A stretch of DNA of 35,423 nucleotides from a virus. This document shows, in pieces, positions 1,366-35,423 of this stretch. The notes beneath the pieces are model-generated. The model was not told where the DNA came from and did no database searches. It saw nothing but the letters and a program-made list of their open reading frames with translations. The position numbers were made by a program, and so were the translations under genes. Each line of letters opens with the position of its first letter. Within the stretch, counting starts at the first letter, position 1. The DNA lies in IMG/VR virus record IMGVR_UViG_3300035099_000527, positions 1 through 35,423 of that record; one strand, given 5' to 3'.

Positions 1366-1394
1366 ATTTTCAATGGAGATAGTGATAATGAAGA

Positions 1395-1740
1395 ACAATA
1401 AAGCCTTGCAAATACAAACTGTTCAAGGCTTTGTTGTGTGCACTCGCAACGCCGAACAAAGTAAGCGTTGCGGGGAAGATTACCGAGAACCCTTTGATGG
1501 GACACTGTCCTGTTGCCCGCAAGGGCAGGGGAGTCGCAGAGAGAACAGAGGAGAACCCTCATCCGCGATAACAGCAGACCTCGGCGCGGCAATATCTGCG
1601 AATTATCTGACGGCGAAGGCGAAACAAACAAGAGCGTAAAAGCCTCACCAAGCCGCAAAAGATAATTTTCCCTTTCAAACAAGGGGAGATTATCTTCAGG
1701 CTCGGCTCACACCAAGGGCGTTACGAAAGTCTCTAAATAA
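1395..1740 (+). ncRNA. candidate structured non-coding RNA (plus strand)
   Basis: This convergent intergenic stretch is packed with strong stems: a 14-bp helix (1395-1408 with 1424-1437), a 10-bp helix (1443-1452 with 1465-1474), a 5-bp stem closed by a GCAA tetraloop (1514-1527), a compound hairpin (1563-1613) and a continuous 16-bp helix (1659-1674 with 1681-1696). The 14-, 10- and 16-bp helices include G.U pairs that are pairs only in plus-strand RNA and would be A.C mismatches in minus-strand RNA. Possible pseudoknot pairings (1535-1540 with 1595-1600; 1310-1317 with 1499-1506) also occur. It is not tmRNA, RNase P or a tRNA as far as I can see. Exact ends are unknown. Confidence 0.45.
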
Positions 1741-7023: not shown

Positions 7024-7223
7024 TTCACCTCCTTCTTCTTATTATGCCTTGACGGCAATTTATAAAGTCGCCTTTTTATTCTGTGTTGCCGATAGAAATC
7101 GTTCCAATATTTACACCAATGTTTGGAATTACACAGCCGGCAAGCATACTGGCTCTTGTGTCCACAAGGCGCTATATGTTTGCAATCACTTCGCATCGTA
7201 TATGCACCAAAACTCTTTGCCAT
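7020..7223 (-). CDS. Cys-rich small protein, repeat copy 1
   Basis: This 67-residue protein is rich in C, H and basic residues: CKHIAPCGHKSQYACRLCNSKHWC, then RQHRIKRRLYKLPSRH. The cysteine and histidine spacing suggests one or two zinc sites, similar to small HNH-like or ribosomal zinc folds, but no HNH active site is clear. This copy ends in NKKKEVK and its final codons contain the AAGGAGG site of the next gene. The first 38 bases overlap the end of the upstream 162-residue gene. Compared with copies 2 and 3 it has several substitutions near its 3' half, so it is the older or faster-changing copy. Confidence 0.55.
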   Translation of the reverse strand: MAKSFGAYTMRSDCKHIAPCGHKSQYACRLCNSKHWCKYWNDFYRQHRIKRRLYKLPSRHNKKKEVK

Positions 7224-7674
7224 TCCCGCGCAGATTGTCGCATTGCCAACCTACCCCGCTCCCCCAATCCGTGTTTTTATATCGTTCTCGTTTTGTGCGA
7301 GAGCAGTCACAAATGGTATAGGATGCACATTCCTGGCCTTTGCGTGGACAGTTTGGGTCAGTAAAAAATCCACCTTCTCCATTCCCAAAAAACGTCCATA
7401 TCGGCTCAAACTTTCGCGCGCCTTCACCATAAGTTATCTCTGCCATCATTCTCTCCTTTCCAGCCTTTTCTTTCACAGGCTCACAAGTGCCACCGTAATT
7501 CTTTCGCAGCGCGTGCCATTCGGCGAGGCGATTAGTCAAATCGAATAAGACATTGGAAATAGGAACTTTGTATCCCGGTGTATCTTGAATACATTGAAGA
7601 ACTGCTTGCGCCCGCTCCGCCGCCTCTGCGATCTTCAGCAGGCGGTCAAGTTCGCTCTGTGAGATTTCTAACAT
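7186..7674 (-). CDS. 162-residue hypothetical protein, duplicate copy 1
   Basis: The chosen ATG at 7674 follows AAGGAGAGGGACAAG; the frame opens 21 codons further up (7737) without such a site. Residues 1-70 are helical (ISQSELDRLLKIAEAAERA), then comes YGGTCEPVKE, then a Cys-rich half with CPRKGQECASYTICDC and a final FWCIYDAK. An internal ATG with its own AAAGGAG (before MAEITYG) could give a shorter second product of about 75 residues. The YGGTCEPVKE segment is shared at DNA level with the unrelated gene at 9314-9988. The family is unknown. Confidence 0.6.
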   Translation of the reverse strand: MLEISQSELDRLLKIAEAAERAQAVLQCIQDTPGYKVPISNVLFDLTNRLAEWHALRKNYGGTCEPVKEKAGKERMMAEITYGEGARKFEPIWTFFGNGEGGFFTDPNCPRKGQECASYTICDCSRTKRERYKNTDWGSGVGWQCDNLRGNGKEFWCIYDAK

Positions 7675-7737
7675 CTTGTCCCTCTCCTTCAAATCAATCG
7701 CAGGGCGGACAGCAGGAGGCGCTCCATTCTGAACCAT

Positions 7738-7950
7738 TCAGGATATACTGGAGCCGTGGGGAGCGTCACTATGCCTTGACGGCAATTTATAAAGTCGCCT
7801 TTTTATTCTGTGTTGCCGGTAGAAATCGTTCCAAGGCTTACACCAACGCTTGGAATTACACAGCCGGCAAGCATACTGGCTCTTGTGTCCACAAGGCGCT
7901 ATATGTTTGCAATCACTTCGCATCGTATATGCACCAAAACTCTTTGCCAT
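7738..7950 (-). CDS. Cys-rich small protein, repeat copy 2
   Basis: This 70-residue version of the Cys-rich protein is identical to copy 1 in most of its first 55 residues but ends in SDAPHGSSIS because the repeat junction replaces its 3' end. The stop codon is directly followed by an ATG of the next frame (7737). It overlaps the end of the upstream duplicate gene by 38 bases in another frame, an arrangement preserved in every copy. Confidence 0.5.
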   Translation of the reverse strand: MAKSFGAYTMRSDCKHIAPCGHKSQYACRLCNSKRWCKPWNDFYRQHRIKRRLYKLPSRHSDAPHGSSIS

Positions 7951-8401
7951 TCCCGCGCAGATTGTCGCATTGCCAACCTACCCCGCTCCCCCAATCCGTG
8001 TTTTTATATCGTTCTCGTTTTGTGCGAGAGCAGTCACAAATGGTATAGGATGCACATTCCTGGCCTTTGCGTGGACAGTTTGGGTCAGTAAAAAATCCAC
8101 CTTCTCCATTCCCAAAAAACGTCCATATCGGCTCAAACTTTCGCGCGCCTTCACCATAAGTTATCTCTGCCATCATTCTCTCCTTTCCAGCCTTTTCTTT
8201 CACAGGCTCACAAGTGCCACCGTAATTCTTTCGCAGCGCGTGCCATTCGGCGAGGCGATTAGTCAAATCGAATAAGACATTGGAAATAGGAACTTTGTAT
8301 CCCGGTGTATCTTGAATACATTGAAGAACTGCTTGCGCCCGCTCCGCCGCCTCTGCGATCTTCAGCAGGCGGTCAAGTTCGCTCTGTGAGATTTCTAACA
8401 T
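7913..8401 (-). CDS. 162-residue hypothetical protein, duplicate copy 2
   Basis: The protein sequence is identical to that of the gene at 7186-7674, with the same AAGGAGAGGG ribosome site before the ATG at 8401 (the frame opens to 8464). No disabling change is seen. Both copies being intact implies a recent event or a dosage benefit. Confidence 0.6.
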   Translation of the reverse strand: MLEISQSELDRLLKIAEAAERAQAVLQCIQDTPGYKVPISNVLFDLTNRLAEWHALRKNYGGTCEPVKEKAGKERMMAEITYGEGARKFEPIWTFFGNGEGGFFTDPNCPRKGQECASYTICDCSRTKRERYKNTDWGSGVGWQCDNLRGNGKEFWCIYDAK

Positions 8402-8464
8402 CTTGTCCCTCTCCTTCAAATCAATCGCAGGGCGGACAGCAGGAGGCGCTCCATTCTGAACCAT

Positions 8465-8767
8465 TCAGGATATACTGGAGCCGTGGGGAGCGTCACTATG
8501 CCTTGACGGCAATTTATAAAGTCGCCTTTTTATTCTGTGTTGCCGGTAGAAATCGTTCCAAGGCTTACACCAACGCTTGGAATTACACAGCCGGCAAGCA
8601 TACTGGCTCTTGTGTCCACAAGGCGCTATATGTTTGCAATCACTTCGCATCGTATATGCACCAAAACTCTTTGCCATTCCCGCGCCATCGCGGTCCCCCT
8701 TTTCGCAAAACCATTCTTTCCCCTCTGGTAATTGCGCTAAACTCTGCGCCCTTCTACCGCGCCTCAC
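8465..8767 (-). CDS. Cys-rich small protein, copy 3 with an amino-terminal extension
   Basis: The frame of the Cys-rich protein is open 30 codons further upstream here and can start at GTG 8767 (GGAGGAG ten bases before), giving 100 residues. A start at the ATG at 8677 gives the 70-residue form seen in copy 2. The extension is basic (RRGRRAQSLAQ) and derives from sequence outside the repeat unit, so this copy marks the upstream edge of the duplication. The shared part carries the same CKHIAPCGHK and CRLC elements. Confidence 0.5.
   Translation of the reverse strand: MRRGRRAQSLAQLPEGKEWFCEKGDRDGAGMAKSFGAYTMRSDCKHIAPCGHKSQYACRLCNSKRWCKPWNDFYRQHRIKRRLYKLPSRHSDAPHGSSIS
8640..8714 (-). CDS. 24-residue small gene sharing the RGNGKEFWCIYDAK end
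   Basis: An ATG at 8714 with AGAGGGGAAAGA before it opens a 24-codon frame whose last 14 residues (RGNGKEFWCIYDAK) equal the carboxy end of the 162-residue duplicates. It looks like a deletion derivative of that gene, fused by short homology at GCGCGGGAATGGC, or the ancestor into which the larger gene was inserted. It overlaps the Cys-rich gene in the same manner as the full copies. Confidence 0.4.
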   Translation of the reverse strand: MVLRKGGPRWRGNGKEFWCIYDAK

Positions 8768-9023
8768 GCGGCTTGGTCTCCTCCGTTAGATGAAACCTCA
8801 GTTTTTCGCGACCGCTAATGAGATTGCCTTTCTTATCAATAAACTCTATTTTGCCGAATACTTCCTTTTTCTTTTTACCCTTGACTCGAAGGCTAATAAA
8901 TCGCACCCAACCATAATAAAGCGCTATCTTTTGGTCGTAATTGCTCAGAAAAGTGCCGCTTGTAACTCTGGGCATTGGCTTGCCATCGACAATAATATGC
9001 CAACCAGAAATACGCGTGTTCAT
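8754..9023 (-). CDS. hypothetical beta-rich protein
   Basis: This 89-residue protein has alternating hydrophobic and charged strands (WHIIVDGKPMPRV, ALYYGWVRFISLRVKGKKKKEVFGKIEFIDKK is broken by turns) suggesting a small beta barrel. The ribosome site before 9023 is a purine-rich GAGAAAAGAAAA rather than a clear AGGAG. The 3' end contains the CGCGGTAGAAGGG junction repeat. No family is recognised. Confidence 0.55.
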   Translation of the reverse strand: MNTRISGWHIIVDGKPMPRVTSGTFLSNYDQKIALYYGWVRFISLRVKGKKKKEVFGKIEFIDKKGNLISGREKLRFHLTEETKPREAR

Positions 9024-12265: not shown

Positions 12266-12961
12266 TTATTGAATTACGGTACACTGTGCAGGTAATTCCA
12301 CGCCCTTCAAGTCGCAACCGTTGGCATATAGCCGCTCCAGGTTTGCAGGTAACTTGACATCCTTCAGGTTGCAACCGTTGGCATATAGCCACTTCAGGTT
12401 TGCAGGTAACTTGACATCCTTCAGGTTGCAACCGTTGGCATTCAGTGACTTCAGGTTTGCAGGTAACTTGACATCCTTCAGGTTGCAACCGTTGGCATAT
12501 AGCCACGTCAGGTTTGCAGGTAACTTGACATCCTTCAGGTTGCAACCGTTGGCATTCAGTGACTCCAGGCTTGCAGGTAATTCCACGCCCTTCAAGTCGC
12601 AACCGTCGGCATCCAGTAACTCCAGGTTTACAGGTAATTCCATGTCCTTCAAGTCCCAACCGTTGACATCCAAAGAGATTAGGGGAACTATTTCCTCTGT
12701 TTGCGCCCAGTTGAAGAAATCAACGAAACGTGGGAATCTCGCTCGAATTGCCGATTCGCATTGTGAAGCGGTAAATTCATCAGTTTCCAATACACGGCAA
12801 CTTACCTTCCCCTTCGGCGTATAATGGAACTCGCGCCATCCATTAGGTGCGGTTCCGTCTATCAACTTCAGTTTTTCCGCCGTTTCAGAATGCGAATTGA
12901 GGTCATAGACTTTCAGTTCCATTGTGTCTGGCTTGAAAAAACCACTTGCAAATTCACACAT
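12266..12961 (-). CDS. leucine-rich-repeat protein with 19-residue repeats
   Basis: The ATG at 12961 has a perfect AAAGGAGGGG site; 19 further upstream codons are open but unsupported. Residues 1-105 form a non-repetitive domain. From about residue 108 to the end come seven 19-residue units of the form L-x-A-N-G-C-N-L-K-D-V-K-L-P-A-N-L-x-x, a leucine-rich repeat with an invariant cysteine resembling the short bacterial LPxxL type. At DNA level the unit is 57 bp and nearly identical between copies, alternating LYANGC and LNANGC forms. The solenoid would present a regular cysteine ladder. A binding role (host protein or nucleic acid) is inferred; no catalytic motif is seen. Confidence 0.75.
   Translation of the reverse strand: MCEFASGFFKPDTMELKVYDLNSHSETAEKLKLIDGTAPNGWREFHYTPKGKVSCRVLETDEFTASQCESAIRARFPRFVDFFNWAQTEEIVPLISLDVNGWDLKDMELPVNLELLDADGCDLKGVELPASLESLNANGCNLKDVKLPANLTWLYANGCNLKDVKLPANLKSLNANGCNLKDVKLPANLKWLYANGCNLKDVKLPANLERLYANGCDLKGVELPAQCTVIQ
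12300..12672. repeat. 57-bp tandem repeats inside the LRR gene
   Basis: About seven 57-base units can be followed by the recurring string GCAACCGTTGGCA. Since 57 is a multiple of three, unit gain or loss keeps the frame. Inner units differ by only a few bases while the first and last have drifted, the mark of recent expansion. This is not a CRISPR array: there are no unique spacers. Confidence 0.85.
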
Positions 12962-35382: not shown

Positions 35383-35423
35383 CGCTTCCGCTTCCGCTTC
35401 CGCTTCCGCTTCCGCTTCCGCTT
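35383..35423. repeat. right-end hexamer array (CGCTTC)n
   Basis: About 6.8 exact copies of CGCTTC run to the last base. The complementary unit occurs twice near the left end (139-152). The window may have been cut or the assembly may have stopped inside this array, so true copy number and what follows are unknown. Confidence 0.8.

Follow-up and report, generated by a model that had tools for sequence, protein, structure and literature searches.

A divergent EGFOA RNA in a phage genome and evidence for an enlarged architecture of the family

By its covariance-model match and its fold, the interval at positions 1395 to 1740 of the DNA analysed here (a 35,423-base record of virus DNA, referred to as the window) encodes a new and divergent EGFOA RNA. 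The best explanation of the data, to which we assign a probability of about one half, is that this EGFOA member is an independent plus-strand non-coding RNA with a loop-based double pseudoknot at its core and a putative action in trans on a host component. Comparison with relatives from other phages provides evidence for an EGFOA architecture larger than the 108-nt model in Rfam, with a family-wide pseudoknot (PK2), a probable second one (PK1), and a 3' domain. A sequence-only reading of the same DNA had proposed that a structured, non-coding RNA is under selection on the plus strand of this phage, between convergent genes, and this observation is confirmed.

The Window and Its Genes

The window carries phage genes for a DnaB-like helicase, a RusA-like resolvase, a major head protein, a P22-like portal, and a very divergent terminase; searches of IMG/VR with the capsid and terminase proteins found no close kin of this phage. 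The RNA interval is preceded by a small cluster of plus-strand genes (531-1207) and followed by minus-strand genes, whose end is at 1752, so that the flanking genes converge on it.

Does the interval encode a conserved protein instead? This possibility had been raised when the interval was first described. The open reading frames (ORFs) that cross it have no protein family match, and the equivalent RNA segment in relatives ranges from 62 to 89 nt, with changes in length that ignore the reading frame. A coding explanation was rejected on the missing family match together with this frame-breaking variation.

Upstream of the interval, at 1264-1366 on the plus strand, a bifurcated stem GCCGCCTGC...GCAGGCGG encloses two hairpins and is followed by TTTTTT (stem and T run 1282-1366; MFE -37 kcal/mol, z -1.0). 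It is probably an elaborate intrinsic terminator that closes the transcript of the small plus-strand cluster. Elsewhere in the window, positions 7123-8685 hold an exact tandem duplication (836 identical bases, offset 727) that gives rise to two identical 183-aa ORFs on the minus strand, 7186-7737 and 7913-8464; this is either a recent duplication or an assembly artefact. A 57-base tandem repeat array of 6.4 copies within minus-strand ORFs (12289-12669) suggests a repeat-protein region. The contig begins with three copies of TAAGAACTC (1-27), and its last bases (35383-35423) form a (CGCTTC)n hexamer array; no direct overlap was seen between its ends, and it is probably a linear fragment.

Folding of the Interval

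All of the helices named in the sequence-only reading were found, with their G-U pairs (Table 1). When both strands of 1380-1740 were folded and compared with shuffled sequence, as had been proposed, the plus strand reached -121.1 kcal/mol (z -5.56, equalled by none of 100 shuffles) and exceeded the minus strand (z -3.65). The excess comes from the two outer parts, with z -4.1 for the 5' one and z -4.7 for the 3' one (-2.7 for the reverse complement of the latter), while the centre alone has a z of only -1.0. This last value is unsurprising because the centre is pseudoknotted and the folding program cannot form pseudoknots, so that its free energy understates this part of the molecule.

Table 1. 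Features of the RNA interval and its surroundings, in window coordinates
Feature	Position	Strand	Basis
Possible -10 element, GATAAT	1384..1389	+	Read from sequence, weak
5' hairpin; 14 bp, 1395-1408/1424-1437, with U1399-G1433 wobble	1395..1437	+	Fold
Second 5' hairpin; 10 bp, 1443-1452/1465-1474, with U1444-G1473 wobble	1443..1474	+	Fold
5' strand of the probable pseudoknot PK1, CCGAG (CCCAG in the family)	1483..1487	+	Relatives
Conserved motif CYGUNC, leading into the PK2 5' strand CUGUU (1510-1514)	1505..1514	+	Relatives, Rfam match
Hairpin with GCAA (GNRA) loop	1515..1526	+	Fold, Rfam consensus
Outer helix 1534-1540/1595-1601 around two hairpins, the first at 1548-1560	1534..1601	+	Fold
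Second inner hairpin; stem 1563-1567/1585-1589, 17-nt loop	1563..1589	+	Relatives, fold
17-nt loop with the 3' strands of PK2 (1573-1577) and of probable PK1 (1580-1584)	1568-1584	+	
3' domain; 16-bp hairpin 1659-1696 (1659-1674/1681-1696) with U-G wobbles 1667/1688 and 1669/1686 and a CCC/GGGG tip, lengthened by 1651-1654/1699-1702	1648..1705	+	Fold, relatives
Tail with CUCAC (1706-1710)	1697..1716	+	Relatives' tails

Identity as EGFOA

To which class of RNA does the interval belong? A search of the whole window (35 kb) against the 4227 families of Rfam 15 gave a sole match, to RF02955 (EGFOA), at 1487-1602 on the plus strand. The match spans model positions 1-108 with 44.2 bits (E 5.5e-5), above the EGFOA gathering cut-off of 37.7 bits, and the earlier statement that the RNA belongs to no known class must be given up. 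The exclusion of tmRNA, RNase P, 6S, and tRNA stands: ARAGORN found neither tRNA nor tmRNA, and covariance models for tmRNA, RNase P, 6S, group I intron, and phi29 pRNA gave no match in the whole window or, at E<=1, in 1200-1900. GOLLD, ROOL, and OLE were likewise absent at gathering thresholds in the window and at E<=1 in 1200-1900. Matches to Flavi_CRE and CRISPR-DR57 fell far under the cut-off and were taken as chance.

The window resembles EGFOA over the entire model, with the leader, the GNRA-type hairpin, the outer multibranch helix, and the loop-bearing stem all present. It differs from the consensus in having CUGUCC in place of CCGUCC in the leader and in its version of the conserved loop (AUAACAGCAGACCUCGG, compared with GUAAAGCUAGACCUgGG in the family), where GACCU is retained but GUAAA has become AUAAC and CUGGG has become CUCGG. 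No blastn match to the window RNA was found among named phages or plasmids. EGFOA is an orphan family, reportedly first described in 2017 in a comparative survey that covered 224 candidate structured RNAs; no discussion of it was found in the openly licensed papers searched, and we know of no function for it.

Relatives in Other Phages

Relatives were collected by scanning IMG/VR with patterns for parts of the EGFOA core and checking the matches with the Rfam model. This yielded 18 distinct relatives from diverse phages: L005 (with a copy in L011), L010, L012, L016, L023, L024, L026, L029, L030, L032, L033, L034, L036, L037, L040, L042, L043, and L044. Fourteen lie above the Rfam cut-off and four below it, L033 and L042 narrowly so; L024 (26.6 bits) and L037 (23.8 bits) keep the core motifs. 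Three early matches (L002, L003, and L004) proved to be coding false positives. A further pattern, CCTHGG, which covers variants of the PK1 loop strand, had nine matches, none of which was EGFOA by the covariance model; thus, the CUCGG variant of the window is rare. When 84,980 cellular genomes were scanned twice with strict patterns, which do not prove absence, no true relative was found, and the contrast between phage and cellular genomes in EGFOA occurrence is clear.

Two Pseudoknots on One Loop

The search for covarying helices in related metagenomic phages, which the sequence-only reading had recommended, was fruitful for two elements of the core. MAFFT misaligned the full cores, and pairs were, instead, counted on segments at fixed offsets from conserved anchors. 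The stem that carries the 17-nt loop is paired in 98.9% of cells and has 33 doubly changed cells among 18 distinct sequences, with covariation at all five of its pairs.

The second covarying element is PK2, a helix between the five bases that follow the CCGUN motif and a five-base stretch of the 17-nt loop. The window has CUGUU/AGCAG here (5/5 pairs) and the Rfam consensus CUAGU/GCUAG, while relatives show such variants as CUAG/CUAG, CUGG/CCAG, CGUG/CACG, and CUCU/AGGG. In all, 85.6% of cells are paired, compared with 64.2% in shuffles, and 18 are doubly changed, compared with 5.2; the covariation score is 0.563 (0.155 shuffled). These values were attained by none of 500 shuffles, and none of the slid registers tested approaches the true one. 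Was this covariation selected by the search itself? The patterns fixed just the outermost C-G of PK2 in most members, and in L005, L010, L012, and L016 they fixed the loop side and left the other side free; the covariation is therefore not a product of the search. These comparisons show PK2, as judged from its substitutions, to be an evolutionarily preserved, family-wide pseudoknot between loop and leader that is absent from the covariance model, and the "possible pseudoknot pairs" of the sequence-only reading are borne out in this part.

The other end of the loop probably takes part in a second long-range helix, PK1 (1483-1487/1580-1584). Its strands are nearly invariant in the family, and the one double change occurs in the window, where CCCAG/CUGGG has become CCGAG/CUCGG, so that the altered loop is matched by a change in the opposite strand. 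The Rfam alignment of the window starts at 1487 and omits most of the 5' strand. PK1 is regarded as probable because this strand was chosen by eye and lies at varying distances from the core. A third pairing, between CCGUC and a GACGG located downstream, was also assessed by eye; it occurs in only about one third of members and was dropped.

The 3' Domain and the 5' Hairpins

Does the RNA extend beyond the Rfam model? In most relatives, a strong hairpin tipped by runs of C and G lies 3' of the core, and its right arm ends 91-120 nt downstream in 11 of 15. The stem sequences vary between lineages. In 13 of the 19 members, the z of the 3' domain is at most -2.5, whereas 57 control windows from the same loci have a mean z of -0.25, with 4% below -2. 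The tails after the hairpin contain CUCAC or CACUC in seven of 14 cases, compared with 1.7 expected (1/2000 shuffles). Recurrence of the 3' hairpin in the family is shown by these folds. EGFOA RNAs in relatives would, thus, reach well past the 108-nt model, which contains neither the 3' domain nor the pseudoknots. Since the hairpin is found both in relatives and in the window, the interval given by the sequence-only reading is nearer to the true RNA than the boundaries in Rfam.

The situation differs at the 5' end. The two 5' hairpins of the window are predicted to be strong but are not conserved in general: the 5' domain of relatives has no family-wide folding excess, despite the z of -4.1 in the window. 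One group (L029, L042, L032, and L030) has a covarying 5' hairpin of its own, in a place comparable to that of the second 5' hairpin of the window. A long-range helix between the 5' domain and the 3' tail gave no excess over shuffles (mean z -0.36) and was rejected.

Transcription and Extent

Exact consensus promoters (TTGACA-17-TATAAT) are found upstream of the RNA in L010 and L036, and near-consensus promoters in L030, L032, and L033; the predicted starts in these five lie 138-240 nt before the core. In L029, L030, and L032, there are promoter-like sequences after the RNA and before the next gene. At 8867-8916, between its promoter and the core, L010 has, in addition, a strong ribosome-binding site, GGGAGGAGG, followed by a very short ORF, the 11-codon frame MCMELMSGKPV.

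In the window itself, a consensus scan gave no sigma-70 promoter at 1384-1389. The GATAAT found there is a suggestion only; with it, the RNA would begin near 1396, at the base of the first helix. Judging by the distances from promoter to tail, the RNA is most likely about 330-450 nt long. That the window encodes an independent plus-strand non-coding RNA running from about 1395 to 1710-1740 is supported by thinner evidence, with both of these ends predicted.

What Might the RNA Do?

The genes next to EGFOA vary from member to member and include terminase, capsid/portal, PhoH, endolysin, ParA, DNA polymerase III, and helicases. In the proposed mechanism, the 17-nt loop, held on its short variable stem, pairs back through PK2 to the strand just past CCGUN, and PK1 would probably join it to a CCCAG-like strand that lies nearer the 5' end. 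The resulting double pseudoknot would expose the nearly invariant GUAAA and GAC nucleotides, and the core would be followed by the separate 3' hairpin with its C/G-rich tip and by the CUCAC-type tail. The RNA probably acts in trans during lytic infection, with the invariant loop docking on a broadly conserved host component. Candidate targets are the translation, transcription, or RNA-processing machinery, for which the RNA might serve as a scaffold or decoy. Action in trans on a host component is suggested because the neighbours differ, because the RNA often has its own promoter or lies between convergent gene ends, and because it was not found in cellular genomes. The choice of a host component rests on the lack of a fixed phage partner, from which we infer a target that is shared by all hosts.

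Several alternatives have to be considered. The RNA might be a counter-defence factor that mimics or absorbs a bacterial immune component, for example a sensor of nucleotide signals or a nuclease sensor. Occurrence in phages only in the scans made, the differing neighbours, and the compact conserved loop are consistent with this idea, but no defence or anti-defence gene was found among the scanned neighbours and nothing connects the loop with a known sensor; counter-defence is unlikely.

It is slightly more doubtful that the pseudoknotted RNA self-associates into a homo-oligomer as an RNA-only assembly. ROOL and GOLLD are often located near tRNA islands. Both are phage RNAs that form nanocages (PMC12286853). 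EGFOA resembles them in being a phage-borne orphan RNA with pseudoknots. In contrast to them, it is much smaller, its loci contain no tRNA gene, and the window has no Rfam match to GOLLD, ROOL, or OLE.

Alternatively, the interval could be a cis-acting element, such as a riboswitch, attenuator, or bidirectional terminator of adjacent genes. The convergent position in the window fits such an element, as do the TTTT that comes after the 3' hairpin when it is read on the minus strand and a plus-strand terminator-like site that overlaps the hairpin. However, the downstream genes vary and are separated from the RNA by promoter-like sequences in three loci, the strong hairpin recurs across gene orientations, and a terminator would not need covariation in a pseudoknot; a role in cis is very improbable.

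The least probable role is that of a packaging RNA, which would form part of the DNA-packaging motor in the manner of phi29 pRNA, likewise a phage-encoded structural RNA: the gene for the terminase large subunit directly adjoins EGFOA in L005, L024, and L044, and capsid/portal genes are near it in L012 and L026, but on longer contigs the terminase match is 14-30 kb away (G013, G016, G026, and G002, the last with a match below the cut-off), other members lie beside PhoH, endolysin, or replication genes, and no other Rfam family is matched. A general link to packaging is rejected by the terminase distances.

Under the preferred reading of a trans-acting RNA, a wider proposal can be made tentatively for the family. 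What is catalogued as EGFOA would be only the middle part of bigger RNAs (about 330-450 nt) that form an independently transcribed class, have a separate 3' domain besides the double-pseudoknot core, are carried by diverse lytic phages, and putatively dock on a conserved host machine. PK2, the probable PK1, the 3' domain, and the promoter positions provide concrete boundaries and mutants for tests of expression, folding, and the binding partner. That phages of very different gene content share one conserved RNA suggests that it may perform a general service to infection.
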